From Pollutimonas subterranea (GTDB taxonomy: Bacteria > Pseudomonadota > Gammaproteobacteria > Burkholderiales > Burkholderiaceae_B): DNA of 41,809 bases. Positions 9,300 to 15,499 of the stretch are shown here, piece after piece (within the stretch, counting starts at the first letter, position 1; each line of letters begins with the position of its first letter). The notes under the pieces were generated by a model that was not told the origin of the DNA, did no database searches, and saw only the letters and a program-made list of their open reading frames with translations. Made by a program: the position numbers and the translations under genes. Location: NCBI RefSeq assembly GCF_002849655.1, contig NZ_PDNW01000025.1, positions 1-41,809 on the forward strand, given 5' to 3'.

Positions 9300-9359
9300 C
9301 GGGCATAGCGATTGCTCCCACCCGCACAGACAGCCCCCTGTCGCGAATTAGGAGCATTC

Positions 9360-10766
9360 ATGAACATAGCGATAATCGGCACAGGTTATGTAGGCCTGGT
9401 TACCGGCGCATGCCTTGCGGAATCAGGAAACAGCGTCATATGTATCGACAACGATGAACAGAAAATCGCCGGACTCCGCGCCGGCACTGTGCCGTTTCAT
9501 GAACCGCTGCTCGATGCGGTTGTCCTGCAGGCCGGCAGACAAGGGAATCTTCAGTTCACAACGCGCCTGGACGAAGGCACACGTCTCGCAGACATCGTAT
9601 TTCTGGCGCTGGGCACGCCGACAGGCAGCGACGGCAATGCCGACATCGGTCCTTTGCTGCAATGTGCACATGAGCTTGCAGAAATCCTTGATCATGATTG
9701 TCTTGTGGTTGTCAAATCGACTGTCCCACCGGGAACTTGTGAAGATATCCAGGCGCTTTTCGATACGATGCTCGGGCGCCGTGCTGCGGGCTGCGCGGTC
9801 AAAGTGGCTTCCAATCCCGAATTCCTTGCCGAGGGCAGCGCCGTCACCGACTTTCGACTACCAGCCCGCATCGTGGTGGGTACATCGGACGACGCCGATG
9901 CGGAAACACTCAAGCAGCTTTATGCACCCTTCGACCCCGACGGCACGCGCCTCATCGAGATGAACCTGCGCTCTGCGGAGTTTGCGAAGTATGCATGCAA
10001 TGCCATGCTGGCGGCGCGCATTTCCTTGATCAACGAGCTTGCCAATATCGCGGGCCCTCTGGGCGCCGATATCGGTCCGGTGTGCCAAGTGTTGAAGTCG
10101 GACCCAAGAATCGGGCCGCGCTATCTGGAACCTGGCGCGGGCTACGGCGGGTCCTGCCTCCCCAAAGACCTGCGGGCGCTTATTCGCATGGCCGGGGACA
10201 AGGGCGAAACGGCGCCCATGCTCCATAGCATCGAAGAAGTGAATCGCCGCCAGGTAGGACTCGTTTTCAATGCGATAGAGAAATATTTCTGGGGACGTTT
10301 CCAAGGACGCTGCGTTGCCGTGTGGGGACTTGCCTTCAAGGCGGGAACAGACGACATTCGAGAGTCGCCCAGCCTGGCGCTGATTCGAGCCCTTCTTGAC
10401 GCCGGCGCGCAGGTACGCGCCTACGATCCCATTGCGGAACCCGCCGTCGAGTCATCATTCACGCATCCCGGCCTGGTCCTTGCGGACAGTGCCGAACAAG
10501 CGTGCCTGGATGCCGACGTGCTCGTCGTGATGACCGAATGGGAGGAGTTCATGACGCCCGATTTCAGGTGGCTGGCGTCCACGCTTCGATCGCCAGCCAT
10601 CTTCGATGCGCGAAATCTTTACCAGGATAAGGATTTGAAGTCCCTGGGCCTTCGTCATTATCAGCCGGGACGAACATTCCCGGCACACTCCATGCTCAAG
10701 ACGGTATGGCCTCAAGCGCCATTATTAAGGGACGATATACCGCAGGCCCGGCAGCAACATGCATGA
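9360..10766 (+). CDS. ugd: UDP-glucose 6-dehydrogenase
   Basis: This 468-residue enzyme oxidises UDP-glucose to UDP-glucuronate with two NAD+, supplying precursors for capsule, exopolysaccharide or lipid A modification. The N-terminal Rossmann motif GTGYVG is at residues 7-12. KSTVPPGT (119-126) and NPEFLAEGSAV (152-162) are typical, and the catalytic cysteine is Cys266 in GYGGSCLPKD. The C-terminal domain carries AFKAGTDDIRESP. The start at 9360 has AGGAG just upstream. No polysaccharide genes sit beside it, so its pathway role here is open. A UDP-N-acetyl-hexosamine dehydrogenase is a less likely alternative. Confidence 0.95.
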   Translation: MNIAIIGTGYVGLVTGACLAESGNSVICIDNDEQKIAGLRAGTVPFHEPLLDAVVLQAGRQGNLQFTTRLDEGTRLADIVFLALGTPTGSDGNADIGPLLQCAHELAEILDHDCLVVVKSTVPPGTCEDIQALFDTMLGRRAAGCAVKVASNPEFLAEGSAVTDFRLPARIVVGTSDDADAETLKQLYAPFDPDGTRLIEMNLRSAEFAKYACNAMLAARISLINELANIAGPLGADIGPVCQVLKSDPRIGPRYLEPGAGYGGSCLPKDLRALIRMAGDKGETAPMLHSIEEVNRRQVGLVFNAIEKYFWGRFQGRCVAVWGLAFKAGTDDIRESPSLALIRALLDAGAQVRAYDPIAEPAVESSFTHPGLVLADSAEQACLDADVLVVMTEWEEFMTPDFRWLASTLRSPAIFDARNLYQDKDLKSLGLRHYQPGRTFPAHSMLKTVWPQAPLLRDDIPQARQQHA

Positions 10767-10835: not shown

Positions 10836-11330
10836 ATGGATGTGGAATGGAGTTCACTGTTCGAGTTGACCATCCCGCCGCTGGAAATTATTGTCCGCGG
10901 CAGCTTGGTCTATTGGTTCATTTTCCTGCTTCTGCGCATGGCCGGCAGACGTGACCTGGGTTCCATCGGTATATCGAGCATACTGTTGCTGGTGTTGATG
11001 GCCGACGCGGCCCAGAATGCGATGGCCGCCGAGTACAAATCGGTAGGCGAAGGCATGATTCTCATTGCTACCCTGGTGTTCTGGAGCGTACTGGTCGACC
11101 GGATAAGCTATTTCATTCCCGCGTCCCGGCCGCTGCTTGCGCCGGATCGAATATGCCTGATCAAGGACGGCGTCATGCAAAAGCGCGGGATGCGCAAGGA
11201 GCATGTGACCGAAGATGAGCTGATGTCGGAACTCCGGTTGAAAGGCATCGATGACATTGCCAAAGTCCGGCGTGCATATATCGAGGAAGCGGGTGACATC
11301 AGCGTACTGGCTTATCGGGAGAAATCCTGA
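10836..11330 (+). CDS. DUF421 (YetF-type) membrane protein
   Basis: This 164-residue protein belongs to the DUF421/YetF family. Transmembrane helices run over about residues 15-35, 40-60 and 70-90. They are followed by a small soluble alpha/beta domain with RPLLAPDRICLIKDGV and the family motif RKEHVTEDELMSELR. The ATG at 10836 has GGGAG upstream. YetF-type proteins are stress-associated in Bacillus, but no molecular function is established. The last 32 bases overlap tail-to-tail with the ABC fusion gene on the opposite strand. Confidence 0.9.
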   Translation: MDVEWSSLFELTIPPLEIIVRGSLVYWFIFLLLRMAGRRDLGSIGISSILLLVLMADAAQNAMAAEYKSVGEGMILIATLVFWSVLVDRISYFIPASRPLLAPDRICLIKDGVMQKRGMRKEHVTEDELMSELRLKGIDDIAKVRRAYIEEAGDISVLAYREKS

Positions 11331-14049
11331 CACGTGTCACCGCCAGAATAGTCGCCAGCAATTCCCGGGGGTCCACCGGCTTGCCCACATGCACCTGGAA
11401 TCCCGCCAGCAATGCGCGCAAACGATCTTCCCTTTCGCTATAGCCGGACAGCGCAATTGCCGGCAACCGTTCCGCCAGGGATGAACCACGTTGCGCCTCG
11501 AGCTTGCGTATGTCGGTAATCACTTGGTATCCGTCCGGTTCGCCCAGGGATATATCGCATACCAATACATCGGGCCATAGTGGCCGCGCACTTTCGTGCA
11601 ATCGCGACAACAGGGAGACGCCGGAATCGAATAGTTCGGCCTGCGCTCCGTGATCTTCAAGGACAGCCGCCAGCAGCTCCCTGGCCTCCTGTTGGTCATC
11701 GGCAATGAAAATACGGATTCCTTCCAGGACGTGATCCTGCTCCGGCGCAGCCGGCGTCGGCGGCGCCAGCGATGCAACAGCCCGTAGCGGCAAGCGGATG
11801 GAAAACGTCATCCCGGAACCGTCTCTTGCCGGCCTCATGTCAAAACTGCCGCCCATTTGCTCCAGTATCGCGGTCACCTGCAGGGGATCCAGCAAATGCG
11901 CCACCCTCACCAGCTGCACATCATCCACCGTGCTTGGGACCGCATCGGGCGCGGACAAGCGTCCATCGGTCACTGAAATCAGCGCTAATCCTTCCGAACG
12001 CTCCAGCCGCAACTCAAGGCGTCCGCCCGGCGGCGTGAAGCCAATCGCGTTCTCCAGCAGATCGCACACGAGTTGCTGCAAAGCGCTGGGGTCGCCGGTG
12101 ACGCGCATCGTATCCGTACTGATAAGTGGATACAGGACTATGCCTTGCGCTTCACTGGCCGGACGCATCGCGTCCAGTACGCCAGCCACCAAAGTCACCA
12201 GGTTCACCGGCTGGGCGGTCAATCGCGAACCCGATTCATCCAGTTCGCTTTGCTGGCGTTGCAGGCTCCACATCTGGGCGTACAAGCCTTTGGCGCGCAG
12301 CAACTCGCCGTGTGAACCGCGCTCGACAATGCGACCATGGTCCATGACCAGTATCATGTCGGCGGCCACTATCGTTGACAACCTATGGGCAATGATCAGG
12401 GTGCTACGGCCTTGCGCAAGGCGATCAAGCTCCTCCTGGATGGCGCGCTCGGTGCGCGTATCCAGGGCGGACGTCGCTTCGTCGAACACGAGCAGGGGCG
12501 GGTTCTTTAGCACCGCCCTGGCAATGGCGATGCGCTGTCGCTCTCCACCCGAGAGCTTCACCCCACGTTCGCCCACCAGGGTGTCATATTGGGCTGGCAA
12601 GCTTTGGATCAGCTCGTGAATCCGCGCAGCTTTGGCCGCCTCGATGACATCCGCCGGTGTGGCCCCTGCCCTGCCATAGGCGATGTTATAGGCAATCGTA
12701 TTATTGAACAGCGCAGAATCCTGGGGTACCACGCCTATCATCGAGCGCAGGCTTTTATGGCTGACCGACCGGACATCCTGGCCATCCACTTTCACACTGC
12801 CGCCATCGACATCATAGAAATGCAAGAGCAAGCGGGCTAATGTGGATTTGCCCGATCCGCTGCCTCCCACTACTGCAACGGTCGCACCCGGCTCAATGCG
12901 AAAGTCCACCCCATGAAGTATCTGGCGGCCAGGTTCGTACGAAAAGTCGACGTTTGAGAACTCGACGGCGCCACCGCGAAAATGCAGTTCAGGCAGGGCT
13001 TCGGCGGGATCCGATTCCGGCGGATAGCGCAACAGCTCCGACATTCTTTCCGCATTGATCAGCGCTTCACGCGCCTGGCGGAAGCTCAAGCCCAGCGTAT
13101 TCAAGGGCAAGCATACTTGTATGACATAGGCATTGACCAGTATCAGGTCGCCGACAGTCATGTTTGCGTTAACGACTTCTTGACCGGCCAATAACATGAT
13201 CGCCGCAACCCCGAACGCAATAATCCCGCTCTGTCCGACATGCAGGACCGACAAGGCGCGCTGGTTATCGACGCCTATGCCTATCCATCTCTTCATGATG
13301 TCGCGCAGGCGTTGCGATTCGACGTGATCGGCGGCATAGAACTTGACGGTTTCATAATTGAGCAGGCTGTCGACCAAATGCCCATTCGCTGCCGAATCGA
13401 GGTCATTCAACTGCCGCAGGTACAGCGTCCGCCTTTCAGTAAACACCACGGTAAATATCGCGTAAACGACGAACGTGACCAGTACGATGGCGGCAAACCC
13501 GAATCGATAGGCCATCATCATGATGGCGACCACCGAAACGATCTCAATGAGCGTGGGCAATACAGTAAAAAGCGCAGTGCCCAATAAAAAACCGACCCCT
13601 GTCGTTCCCCTTTCGACGTCGCGCGACAGCGCGCCTGCCTGCCGGCCGCCAAGGAACTTTACGCCAAGGCTGTGAAGATGGTCGAACATCCGCACGGTAA
13701 AGTCGGAAACTGCCGTCTGGGTGACGCGCGCAAACGCCAAATCCCGCAACTCCGTGAACAAGCCGGAAGAGAAGCGCAGCAGGGCATAGCCTATCAAGAG
13801 AAAAACCGGCAAGGTCAAGGTTGTAGTGCTTGAATCCAGGACATCGACGATGCGCTTGAGGGCGACCGGCACCAGAACTGCGAACAGCTTTGCCAGGATC
13901 AGCAAGGCCAAGGCCGCCCCCACGCGCCGCCTGAATCGCCACAAGACCCGACCTACGGTCTTGAAAATTTCGCGGCGTGCAAACGTCGAAGCGCCCGTAT
14001 CGCCGATCCCCGGTCGGGTCGATGGCGGACTGTTAACCAAGTCTTCCAT
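11299..14049 (-). CDS. Fusion protein: Atm1-like ABC exporter, histidine-kinase-type ATPase domain, response-regulator receiver
   Basis: This 916-residue protein joins three modules. Residues 35-335 form a six-helix type I ABC exporter membrane domain resembling Atm1/HMT1 transporters (NYETVKFYAADHVE at 231-244). Residues 360-600 are the nucleotide-binding domain: Walker A GGSGSGKST (395-403), signature LSGGE (499-503), Walker B ending D523-E524, and H-loop His555. Residues 615-757 resemble a HATPase_c domain, with the N-box DLLENAIGFTPPGG (Asn667); there is no H-box, and the G1 box is degenerate (VTDGR). Residues 777-905 are a receiver domain with acidic pair D784/D785, phospho-acceptor D832, Ser868 and Lys890. 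I took the ATG at 14047-14049 (GAGGA upstream). It is the last gene of a three-gene operon after a BrkB-like gene. The ABC portion would be active by motif; regulation of transport by phosphorylation of the receiver is inference. Confidence 0.93.
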   Translation of the reverse strand: MEDLVNSPPSTRPGIGDTGASTFARREIFKTVGRVLWRFRRRVGAALALLILAKLFAVLVPVALKRIVDVLDSSTTTLTLPVFLLIGYALLRFSSGLFTELRDLAFARVTQTAVSDFTVRMFDHLHSLGVKFLGGRQAGALSRDVERGTTGVGFLLGTALFTVLPTLIEIVSVVAIMMMAYRFGFAAIVLVTFVVYAIFTVVFTERRTLYLRQLNDLDSAANGHLVDSLLNYETVKFYAADHVESQRLRDIMKRWIGIGVDNQRALSVLHVGQSGIIAFGVAAIMLLAGQEVVNANMTVGDLILVNAYVIQVCLPLNTLGLSFRQAREALINAERMSELLRYPPESDPAEALPELHFRGGAVEFSNVDFSYEPGRQILHGVDFRIEPGATVAVVGGSGSGKSTLARLLLHFYDVDGGSVKVDGQDVRSVSHKSLRSMIGVVPQDSALFNNTIAYNIAYGRAGATPADVIEAAKAARIHELIQSLPAQYDTLVGERGVKLSGGERQRIAIARAVLKNPPLLVFDEATSALDTRTERAIQEELDRLAQGRSTLIIAHRLSTIVAADMILVMDHGRIVERGSHGELLRAKGLYAQMWSLQRQQSELDESGSRLTAQPVNLVTLVAGVLDAMRPASEAQGIVLYPLISTDTMRVTGDPSALQQLVCDLLENAIGFTPPGGRLELRLERSEGLALISVTDGRLSAPDAVPSTVDDVQLVRVAHLLDPLQVTAILEQMGGSFDMRPARDGSGMTFSIRLPLRAVASLAPPTPAAPEQDHVLEGIRIFIADDQQEARELLAAVLEDHGAQAELFDSGVSLLSRLHESARPLWPDVLVCDISLGEPDGYQVITDIRKLEAQRGSSLAERLPAIALSGYSEREDRLRALLAGFQVHVGKPVDPRELLATILAVTRVRISPDKPVR

Positions 14050-14070
14050 GACAATCCTCAAGCATTGAAT

Positions 14071-14961
14071 TTACGGCGGCATCATATCGGCGCCCTTCTC
14101 TGCTTTCTTCTCAACGGTTACGCGCGATCCGTGCCGACGCGCGTAGATCCAGGTGAACTCGGCGCCCAGCAGAAATACCTGGGCGGCGTAGTACACCCAG
14201 ATCAGCAGGATAACCAGGGAGCCTGCCGCCGTCAGCGAGGAAATGGTCGAGCTTTTACCCACATACAGGGCAATGAGAGTCTTACCGACTTCGAAAAGGA
14301 TGGCGGTCACCAATGCGCCCACCCATACATCGCGCCAGGCTATCTTTGCCTGCGGCATGAATTTATAGATCATGGCAAAGAGCACAGTAGCGATGCCCAG
14401 TGAAACGACCGCGTTGATGACCTGCAGCAGTAGCTCCCACCCAGGGAACAATCCAGTGGTCCACTGGCCAAACGCCGCCAGAGCGGCGCTGAGAATCAGG
14501 GATACGATCAGCAGGAACGCCAAGCCCAGAACAAGGCCGAAAGAAAGCAGGCGCGCGCGCAGGGTCGCCAATATGCCGGACTTGGCCGTCGCCGGTACCT
14601 CCCAAATACGATCCAGCGCGCTTTGCAATTCGGCGAATACGGTAGTTGAACCTACGACCAGCACTATCACGCTGAAGAGCGTGGCGGTAATGCCTTGCGC
14701 CGGTTTATCGGCGCTCTCGATCAGATTCTGCACACCCGATGCGCTGTCAGGTCCGACCATGCCTCCGATCTGGCGGACGATTTCCCCGCGTACCGCATCT
14801 TCACCCCAGACAAAGCCGGCGACCGCAATGACTATGACCAGCAAAGGCGCAATCGAAAAAGTCGTATAGAAAGCAATGGCCGCACCCATGCTCGGGGCAC
14901 CATCCTCCAGCCAGGCTGTCACGGACTCTTTGCCTAAATGAAAGAATTCCTTTACACGCAT
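14071..14961 (-). CDS. YihY/BrkB-family inner-membrane protein
   Basis: This 296-residue protein matches the YihY/BrkB family, named after Bordetella pertussis BrkB and historically misannotated as ribonuclease BN. It has about six transmembrane helices, starting with GAAIAFYTTFSIAPLLVIVIAV, the family hallmark, followed by the conserved FAELQSALDRIWEVP. Towards the C-terminus come YKFMPQAKIAWRDVW and the last two helices. The ATG at 14959-14961 has AGGAG upstream. The stop lies 21 bases before the ABC fusion and the start 28 bases after the GlcG-like gene, so the three genes probably form one operon. The transported substrate is unknown. Confidence 0.94.
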   Translation of the reverse strand: MRVKEFFHLGKESVTAWLEDGAPSMGAAIAFYTTFSIAPLLVIVIAVAGFVWGEDAVRGEIVRQIGGMVGPDSASGVQNLIESADKPAQGITATLFSVIVLVVGSTTVFAELQSALDRIWEVPATAKSGILATLRARLLSFGLVLGLAFLLIVSLILSAALAAFGQWTTGLFPGWELLLQVINAVVSLGIATVLFAMIYKFMPQAKIAWRDVWVGALVTAILFEVGKTLIALYVGKSSTISSLTAAGSLVILLIWVYYAAQVFLLGAEFTWIYARRHGSRVTVEKKAEKGADMMPP

Positions 14962-14989: not shown

Positions 14990-15499
14990 TCATGGGTTGC
15001 TCAGATCAGGCGCATCCCGGCGCTCCAAAGCGCGCGCCTTGGAGACGGCTTTCAGGCAATGAGCGACAGTCGCGGCAAACGCTTCGTCATACCACGGATT
15101 GGCGCCGCTGACGCCCACGACGATGCCGTCAATGTGCACACCGCCCCAGATCCCGCAGTCGCCTTTGTGCAAAAGATGCGGCAGGACATGGCGCACGGTA
15201 TGGCCATCGCGACCCGTGCGCCAGCAAACCTTCGCCTTGTCACGAGCAAAGCGGGCATAATCGGCATCCCATTTGGCCCGGTCACCGATGGCATGTTCAT
15301 AGAGGATCGCATCGTCGAATTCGCTGGTCGATGGGTCGAGCCCGGGGTCCATGATTACGATGTAAAGGAAACCGCTATCCCCGACAGCGGCATTTCGTAT
15401 GCCCTGCTCGAGCATTGGAAGGGCAAGGTTTACGGCCTGCCTGGCCGCATCCCGGTCCGCAAAATGACTGCCTGGAGCTGGCTGCCGCTCTGTATTCAT
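14990..15499 (-). CDS. GlcG/HbpS-like (DUF336-type) protein
   Basis: This 169-residue soluble protein resembles the GlcG/HbpS family in its C-terminal half: the segment GIWGGVHIDGIVVGVSGANPWYDEAFA (about 110-136) follows the family pattern in which a glycine-rich strand pair precedes a D-E helix, and the N-terminal LALPMLEQGI helix also fits. Family members include haem-binding HbpS and the glycolate-operon protein GlcG of unknown role. I chose ATG 15499 because AAGGAG and GAGG lie upstream; a longer frame from 15559 is less likely. It heads the operon with the BrkB-like and ABC fusion genes. A reading frame of similar length on the plus strand covers the same DNA but has no recognisable features. 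Family assignment is moderate. Confidence 0.6.
   Translation of the reverse strand: MNTERQPAPGSHFADRDAARQAVNLALPMLEQGIRNAAVGDSGFLYIVIMDPGLDPSTSEFDDAILYEHAIGDRAKWDADYARFARDKAKVCWRTGRDGHTVRHVLPHLLHKGDCGIWGGVHIDGIVVGVSGANPWYDEAFAATVAHCLKAVSKARALERRDAPDLSNP

Follow-up and report, generated by a model that had tools for sequence, protein, structure and literature searches.

An Atm1-derived ABC exporter carrying a decayed HATPase domain and a conserved receiver in Burkholderiales

The stretch of DNA analysed here (referred to as the window) comprises the 41,809 nucleotides (nts) of contig NZ_PDNW01000025.1 of Pollutimonas subterranea, from a genome of 4.54 Mb in 68 contigs. Its minus strand carries a gene in which an ATP-binding cassette (ABC) exporter is fused to a C-terminal tail of two-component type. 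The gene is a single open reading frame (ORF) of 916 residues, starting with the ATG at 14049 and coding down to 11302, with the stop codon at 11299-11301. A GAGG is located six bases 5′ of this ATG, and an in-frame TTG at 14061 is also possible as an alternative start. Pfam models match in the order ABC_membrane (residues 45-312, E 1.3e-30), ABC_tran (residues 378-527, E 2e-33), HATPase_c (residues 652-756, E 3.7e-7) and Response_reg (residues 780-901, E 4.3e-17); the HATPase_c match is weak but above the cut-off (31 bits versus 26.4). An earlier note, made from the letters of the window, had described the same frame and order of domains, leaving the strand unsaid, and had proposed a domain search of the whole protein; the C-terminal region scores as both HATPase and receiver. 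The residues which it had listed in the tail (N667, D784, D785, D832, S868 and K890) are found at the positions given there, and the exporter motifs, as it had stated, are complete (Walker A, Q-loop, signature, Walker B and H motif).

Related proteins were counted with this one query at strict cut-offs (1e-195, 1e-192, 1e-170 and 1e-165), at which any fusion whose ABC half is more distant would escape detection. In a sample of the family, 42 of 268 genomes (own genome included) gave a match at E ≤1e-195. This match extended to residue 901 or further in 41 of them (as two pieces in G201) and, in the remaining one (G130), ended at residue 764, 10 bases from the contig end. Among 399 genomes sampled across the order, 38 matched, of which seven (the own genome and three from other families included) extended through the receiver; in the other 31 the match ended by residue 635. 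In the class (92 matches in 369 genomes) and phylum samples (26 in 299), the own protein only was matched beyond residue 642. Matches were also found in 25 of 72,556 plasmid records, seven with at least 80% coverage, from two Burkholderia, two Caballeronia, two Paraburkholderia and one Cupriavidus replicon; annotated plasmid copies carry an ABC-protein label only. The nearest named relatives of the protein are from Pollutimonas species (Alcaligenaceae, Burkholderiales), the best segment being 82% identical. Within the samples searched, the fusion is characteristic of Burkholderiales.

For alignment of the tails, 57 full-length ORF matches were collapsed to 45 distinct fused proteins. One of these (L152) stops at a contig edge before the receiver, for which counts are therefore given over 44 rows; L009, with an in-frame gap described below, was retained. 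The joint between the two halves, QPVNL (residues 613-617), is kept at each position in 38-43 of the 45 sequences. The earlier note had named a frameshift or an assembly error joining two genes as what would undo its reading. Because the same frame recurs in dozens of separately sequenced genomes, with a common joint in 45 distinct sequences, we consider such an artefact ruled out, its remaining probability being negligible.

The two domains of the tail differ in conservation. The phospho-acceptor D832 and S/T868 are present in 44/44 rows, and the whole receiver active site, i.e. the acidic pair (D/E784, D785), phospho-acceptor Asp, S/T and K890, is present in the window protein and in 41/44 rows. 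At position 667, the N-box Asn of the HATPase domain, we found N in 19 of 45 rows, H in 17, S in five, R in two, and Q and A in one each; at position 697, the second Gly of the G1 box, R occurred in 40 rows, G in three and A in two. G1 of the window protein reads D-G-R instead of DxGxG and G2 is not recognisable, so that the N, G1 and G2 boxes of a histidine kinase are not all found in this domain. No conserved His was observed in residues 598-650 across the aligned fused proteins, and the window protein gave no Pfam match to HisKA at E up to 1, leaving the dimerisation and histidine phosphotransfer (DHp) part of a histidine kinase without a counterpart. The absence of an H-box and the degenerate G1 had been seen in the earlier note. 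As a control, we used 15 histidine kinases from the own genome and the context loci, picked by similarity to the kinase core: the H-box and the N-box Asn were present in 15/15 and DxGxG in 12/15. G1 alone is thus not decisive, since three of these kinases also carry an imperfect DxGxG.

The same pattern extends to distant members. In the five most divergent rows (L118, L120, L121, L154 and L155) the N-box Asn and G1 are both lost and the receiver is complete. The six Burkholderiaceae copies have all lost G1 and all kept a complete receiver, three of them still carrying Asn at 667. In 11/11 close pairs, the ratio of nonsynonymous to synonymous substitution rates (dN/dS) was below 0.35 for every domain (0.05-0.18 for the HATPase, the loosest domain in 8/11 pairs, and 0.03-0.35 for the receiver); these values are rough because dS exceeds 1 in several pairs. 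In the AlphaFold model, the receiver is among the better-modelled parts, with predicted local distance difference test (pLDDT) scores of 61-87 in ten-residue blocks. Helices and strands of the HATPase fold appear as well, and residues 698-719, at the place of the ATP lid, score below 50. Since the HATPase motifs decay while the receiver stays complete, our reading is that the HATPase domain is a pseudo-ATPase and that, within the tail, selection has maintained the receiver.

The tail resembles the end of a hybrid histidine kinase. Residues 615-906 align, at 29% identity, with residues 1102-1391 of a 1394-residue kinase encoded at 42-46 kb on contig C67 of the own genome (L210:3771-7952), which is the best match of the tail in this genome and shows a CheB-CheR-PAS-HisKA-HATPase-REC organization (Pfam). 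The earlier note had suggested that a phosphorelay gates transport or ATPase activity, or that the sensor part was captured from a hybrid kinase and now acts as a nucleotide or phosphate sensor. Because the tail is collinear with the end of a hybrid kinase and the receiver residues are kept, capture and phosphorelay gating are a fair reading; a nucleotide-sensing HATPase fares poorly, with the Asn in 19/45 and the second G1 Gly in 3/45 rows.

The exporter half is of another origin. The best Protein Data Bank sequence matches of the transmembrane domain (TMD) are ABCB7, plant ABCB25, mitochondrial ATM1 and NaAtm1, and the protein has what characterizes Atm1/ABCB7-type half-transporters, a TMD and a nucleotide-binding domain (NBD) with intact Walker A and B, signature and H motifs. 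It would presumably work as a homodimer, by analogy with this family. In the NBD, K401, S500, D523, E524 and H555 are kept in 45/45 fused proteins and Q443 in 44/45, the exception being L009, which is devoid of that stretch. In this Pollutimonas nitritireducens orthologue (L009:6001-8601), about 38 NBD residues between Walker A and the signature motif, Q-loop included, are missing in frame, by deletion or by an assembly slip. The own genome also holds an unfused Atm1-type copy (C1:147746-149554, 51% identity), and such unfused copies occur in 105 of 151 family genomes at E ≤1e-195 (106 matches, one being the fused gene of G098). A tree was built from 87 ABC halves, including 46 fused rows of which one duplicates the query; in it, the fused forms constitute one side of one branch, adjoining three unfused sisters after a long, well-supported shared stem. 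A tree of the tails recovers most clades of the ABC tree. The fusion probably arose once, the simplest account of these sequences, supported but not proven.

According to the sections of PMC6424863 consulted, the glutathione site of the Rhodobacter capsulatus protein includes Arg212, Arg216, Asn275 and Arg329. Their counterparts here, assigned from the alignment and from identical spacing, are positions 207, 211, 270 and 324; in the window protein R207, L211 and H270 are inside the TMD Pfam range and R324 just beyond it. Positions 207 and 324 are Arg in all rows. At position 211, 34 of 38 other unfused copies have R, whereas the three sisters and 44/45 fused rows have Q, and the window protein has L. 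At position 270, all 38 other unfused copies have N, and the three sisters and 43/45 fused rows have H. The six Burkholderiaceae copies read R, Q, H and R at the four positions. Q273 and a PLN-x-LG stretch are kept as well. Because two of the four site residues are kept and two switched, we regard the ABC half as an Atm1-derived paralogue and do not class it as an Atm1 exporter. The switch predates the fusion, since the three unfused sisters share it.

Table 1. Features of the fused gene and its surroundings in the window.
Feature	Positions	Strand	Basis or remark
UDP-glucose/GDP-mannose dehydrogenase	9351..10766	+	Similar frames in 12/23 other loci compared
DUF421 (YetF C-terminal domain) protein, convergent	10836..11330	+	Overlap of 32 nt with the end of the fused gene
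Fused ABC exporter / pseudo-HATPase (as read here) / receiver coding sequence, 916 residues	11299..14049	-	ORF; ATG 14049
Receiver domain, residues 780-901	11347..11712	-	Pfam, alignment
Codon of phospho-acceptor Asp832	11554..11556	-	Asp in 44/44 rows reaching the position
Degenerate HATPase-like domain, residues 613-757 (Pfam core 652-756), no H-box	11779..12213	-	Pfam, alignment
C-terminal helix of the ABC half leading into the tail, about residues 589-611	12217..12285	-	Weak model (helix 589-605); alignment columns 590-600
NBD, residues 362-597; Walker A, Q-loop Gln, signature, Walker B and H motif intact	12259..12966	-	Pfam, alignment
TMD, residues 45-312, Atm1/ABCB7-type	13114..13917	-	Pfam, PDB sequence matches, alignment columns
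BrkB/YihY-family membrane protein	14071..14961	-	21 nt upstream of the fused start codon; only in the nearest relatives' loci
F4, small protein, HbpS/GlcG-like predicted fold	14990..15499	-	Likely ATG 15499 after AGGAG; 28 nt upstream of the BrkB gene

In the window, F4, the BrkB-family gene and the fused gene follow each other on one strand with gaps of 28 and 21 nt (Table 1). BrkB, DUF421 and BON genes are also found nearby in some fused loci. A recurrent neighbourhood is a glycan gene set including GT4, SDR, HAD phosphatase, GT9, carbamoyltransferase, further GT2/GT9/GT4 and NAD epimerase genes. At least two genes of this set are present in 17 of 19 fused loci with about 19 kb of context (L179-L197; L179 and L192 are without). 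It was found in 4/4 annotated plasmid loci, together with a PIG-L deacetylase and a UDP-glucuronic acid decarboxylase. The GT4 gene occurs in 47 of 240 family genomes, 38 of which have the fusion. Four fused genomes are absent from the GT4 list, one being the query source and hence not drawn; in the three of the four that were looked at (all but G040), GT4 is near the fused gene. The unfused sisters (L200, L201 and L202), which carry Q and H at the two switched positions, occupy much the same kind of glycan gene set. The exporter probably carries something made by these co-occurring glycan genes, a product or an intermediate, in preference to glutathione disulfide; a glutathione-type cargo is our second guess. 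In two loci (L222 and L224), the gene set adjoins BON, DUF1269, hemerythrin or alcohol dehydrogenase genes on secondary replicons. These surroundings are reminiscent of low-oxygen stress loci; a possible link to the Burkholderia cenocepacia low-oxygen locus is a lead only.

The small protein F4 is encoded in 39 of the 42 fused family genomes and in 2 of the 226 others; this co-occurrence, like that of GT4, is counted per genome and not per independent event. In eight genera (g1, g2, g8, g13, g15, g32, g33 and g42) the fusion is found in some members only and F4 mostly follows it, with G200, G193, G194 and G079 as exceptions. Stretches of two genomes, G079 (L204) and G226 (L205), keep F4 with the fused exporter absent, the glycan set being otherwise present in G226. 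F4 matches no Pfam or NCBIfam model. PF03928 was not among the seven Pfam families listed for 29 F4 members at E up to 1. Comparing its profile with that of one HbpS-family protein gave no significant result. Since the predicted fold agrees and the profile does not match, we describe F4 as HbpS-like by predicted fold and do not class it as a member of PF03928. F4 would be the likeliest ligand sensor or partner of the fused exporter.

Kinases of several kinds are found near the fused gene in some loci. A CheB-CheR-type kinase is located beside the glycan set in L221 (Pfam) and in L224 (CheR family by annotation). In L225, about 1.4 kb separate the fused frame from the end of a preceding 1367-residue frame, whose kinase core has 47% identity to the CheB-CheR type. 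These neighbours are leads only as possible phosphate donors. The hybrid kinase on C67, whose end resembles the tail, is a further lead as a candidate donor.

Neither the Atm1-family origin and the switched substrate site nor the glycan genes and the HbpS-fold protein had appeared in the earlier note. Taken together, these results lead us to a tentative reading, which we place slightly short of an even chance: the fused protein would be a receiver-gated exporter, phosphorylated in trans, with a glycan-type cargo and an HbpS-fold partner. An Atm1/ABCB7-type half-transporter would have acquired the HATPase and receiver from the C-terminal half of a hybrid histidine kinase, but not the domain carrying the phospho-acceptor His. 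The HATPase half, judging from its lost motifs, could now serve as a pseudo-ATPase linker or docking domain, and the receiver, judging from its conservation, may still take phosphate on Asp832 from a kinase encoded elsewhere. Phosphorylation could alter the packing of the two cytoplasmic tails, a change which the C-terminal helix following the NBD (about residues 589-611) might relay so as to favour or block NBD closure. This helix is a possible lever on the NBD because, according to the consulted sections of PMC6424863, interleaving C-terminal helices in Atm1-like proteins touch the opposite NBD. Export would thereby be switched without new transcription. It is possible, and we hold this part with less assurance, that the two-component output is the ABC exporter itself, with Asp phosphorylation opening or closing a pump for glycan intermediates and the HbpS-fold protein feeding in a small-molecule or redox signal.

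Several observations weigh against the gated exporter. No kinase is constantly linked to the fused gene across the loci; the window holds no kinase or receiver besides the fused gene, nor a relative of the glycan GT4. The glycan set is not beside the fused gene in the window or in the nearest relatives' loci (L009-L011 and L159), the own genome carries its GT4 on another contig (C67:705-1964), and nine genomes have GT4 without the fusion. Unfused sisters occur in similar glycan loci, so that the pathway as such can do without the tail. F4 is missing in three fused genomes (G193, G194 and G200) and was found in only two of six plasmid stretches read (stretches, not whole replicons). Three receivers (L162, L106 and L153) depart from the conserved set by one to three residues, L153 by three. 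The whole-protein model, built from seven sequences, is weak, with a mean pLDDT of 58. Finally, the branch uniting the fused forms has a Shimodaira-Hasegawa-like approximate likelihood ratio test (SH-aLRT) value of 79, below the usual mark, and the tail tree places the g10 and g32 groups differently.

The closest sequence matches to structures of Atm1/ABCB7 type, together with the retention of R207, Q273, R324 and the PLN-x-LG stretch, would also suit an ordinary Atm1-like exporter of glutathione conjugates or metals, for which the fusion tightened control by a stress kinase and the glycan genes are mere island neighbours. The BrkB, DUF421 and BON genes near some loci and the non-adjacent glycan set in the window point the same way. 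However, two named site residues are switched in a clade with a long stem, a separate unfused Atm1-type copy is present in most of the family genomes sampled at the strict cut-off, and GT4 co-occurs with the fusion even when unlinked, which makes this account rather unlikely. The descent of the tail from a sensor kinase also allows the reverse direction, in which the transport state of the exporter provides the input, and the receiver, serving as output or as a phosphate sink, reports flux to a kinase network. Signalling transporter-kinase fusions are indeed known, as described in the available portions of reports on CbrA (PMC7096432, PMC13022988) and on an Amt-kinase (PMC5764959). Nevertheless, the tail cannot itself start a phosphorelay, since it has no His domain and its ATP-binding motifs have decayed, and the NBD is intact, unlike that of a pure sensor; we judge such a transceptor unlikely, a little more so than the ordinary exporter.

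The loss of the HATPase motifs, and of key residues in 3/44 receivers, could alternatively mean that the tail is a structural module for dimerisation or anchoring, in which phosphorylation is vestigial. D832 and S/T868 are nevertheless invariant in 44/44 rows across otherwise widely diverged tails, and a scaffold would not need an acidic pocket, so that this explanation appears improbable. A HATPase that has retained ATP binding and works as a kinase or as a nucleotide sensor could be argued for from its Pfam score above the cut-off and from N667, present in the window protein, in 19/45 rows and in 3/6 Burkholderiaceae copies. Against this, the N-box Asn is lost in 26/45 rows and the second G1 Gly is replaced by Arg in 40/45, the window protein has no recognisable G2 and no H-box, and the place of the ATP lid (698-719) is modelled below pLDDT 50 in a weak model. 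We therefore consider ATP binding by this domain highly improbable.

To our knowledge, ABC exporters are mostly controlled at the level of the gene or by way of the substrate. The arrangement described here, conserved in many related bacteria, suggests that a signalling kinase may switch the pump and not the gene encoding it, and a conserved exporter carrying its own receiver would allow post-translational phosphorelay gating of a pump to be probed in one protein. The fusion also marks an Atm1-derived clade whose substrate site has changed and which, in Burkholderiales, co-occurs with glycan genes. It offers a first clue to a small HbpS-fold family without a name in Pfam and NCBIfam.

With Atm1/ABCB7-type exporters (NaAtm1, mitochondrial Atm1, ABCB7 and R. 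capsulatus PexA), the fused protein shares the TMD and NBD fold, the motifs, R207 and R324. It differs from them by Q (L in the window protein) in place of R at 211, by H in place of N at 270 and by its HATPase-receiver tail, and it coexists with a separate unfused copy in the same genome. The last 300 or so residues of two CheB-CheR-PAS-HisKA-HATPase-REC hybrids align in order with the tail; compared with these, the sensor part and HisKA are absent, the HATPase has decayed and an exporter stands in place of the sensor. F4 recalls HbpS of the HbpS-SenS-SenR system and other HbpS/GlcG-fold proteins (EfgA, PduO-C) and differs in matching no Pfam or NCBIfam model. Full-text searches aimed at it, in open-licence papers only and as judged from titles and the opening of abstracts, gave no account of an ABC exporter with a pseudo-HATPase and an intact receiver. 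Transporter-kinase fusions are already known. As far as the consulted portions of their descriptions go, these (CbrA/CrbS/RpuS with SLC5-STAC, and the Kuenenia Amt-kinase) likewise unite a transporter and two-component domains in one chain. An active kinase half, as in CbrA-like transceptors, is not found in the fused protein, which has no HisKA and decayed HATPase motifs. Those fusions join a symporter-type or Amt-type domain to a kinase, whereas here an ATP-driven exporter is followed by a decayed HATPase and an intact receiver.

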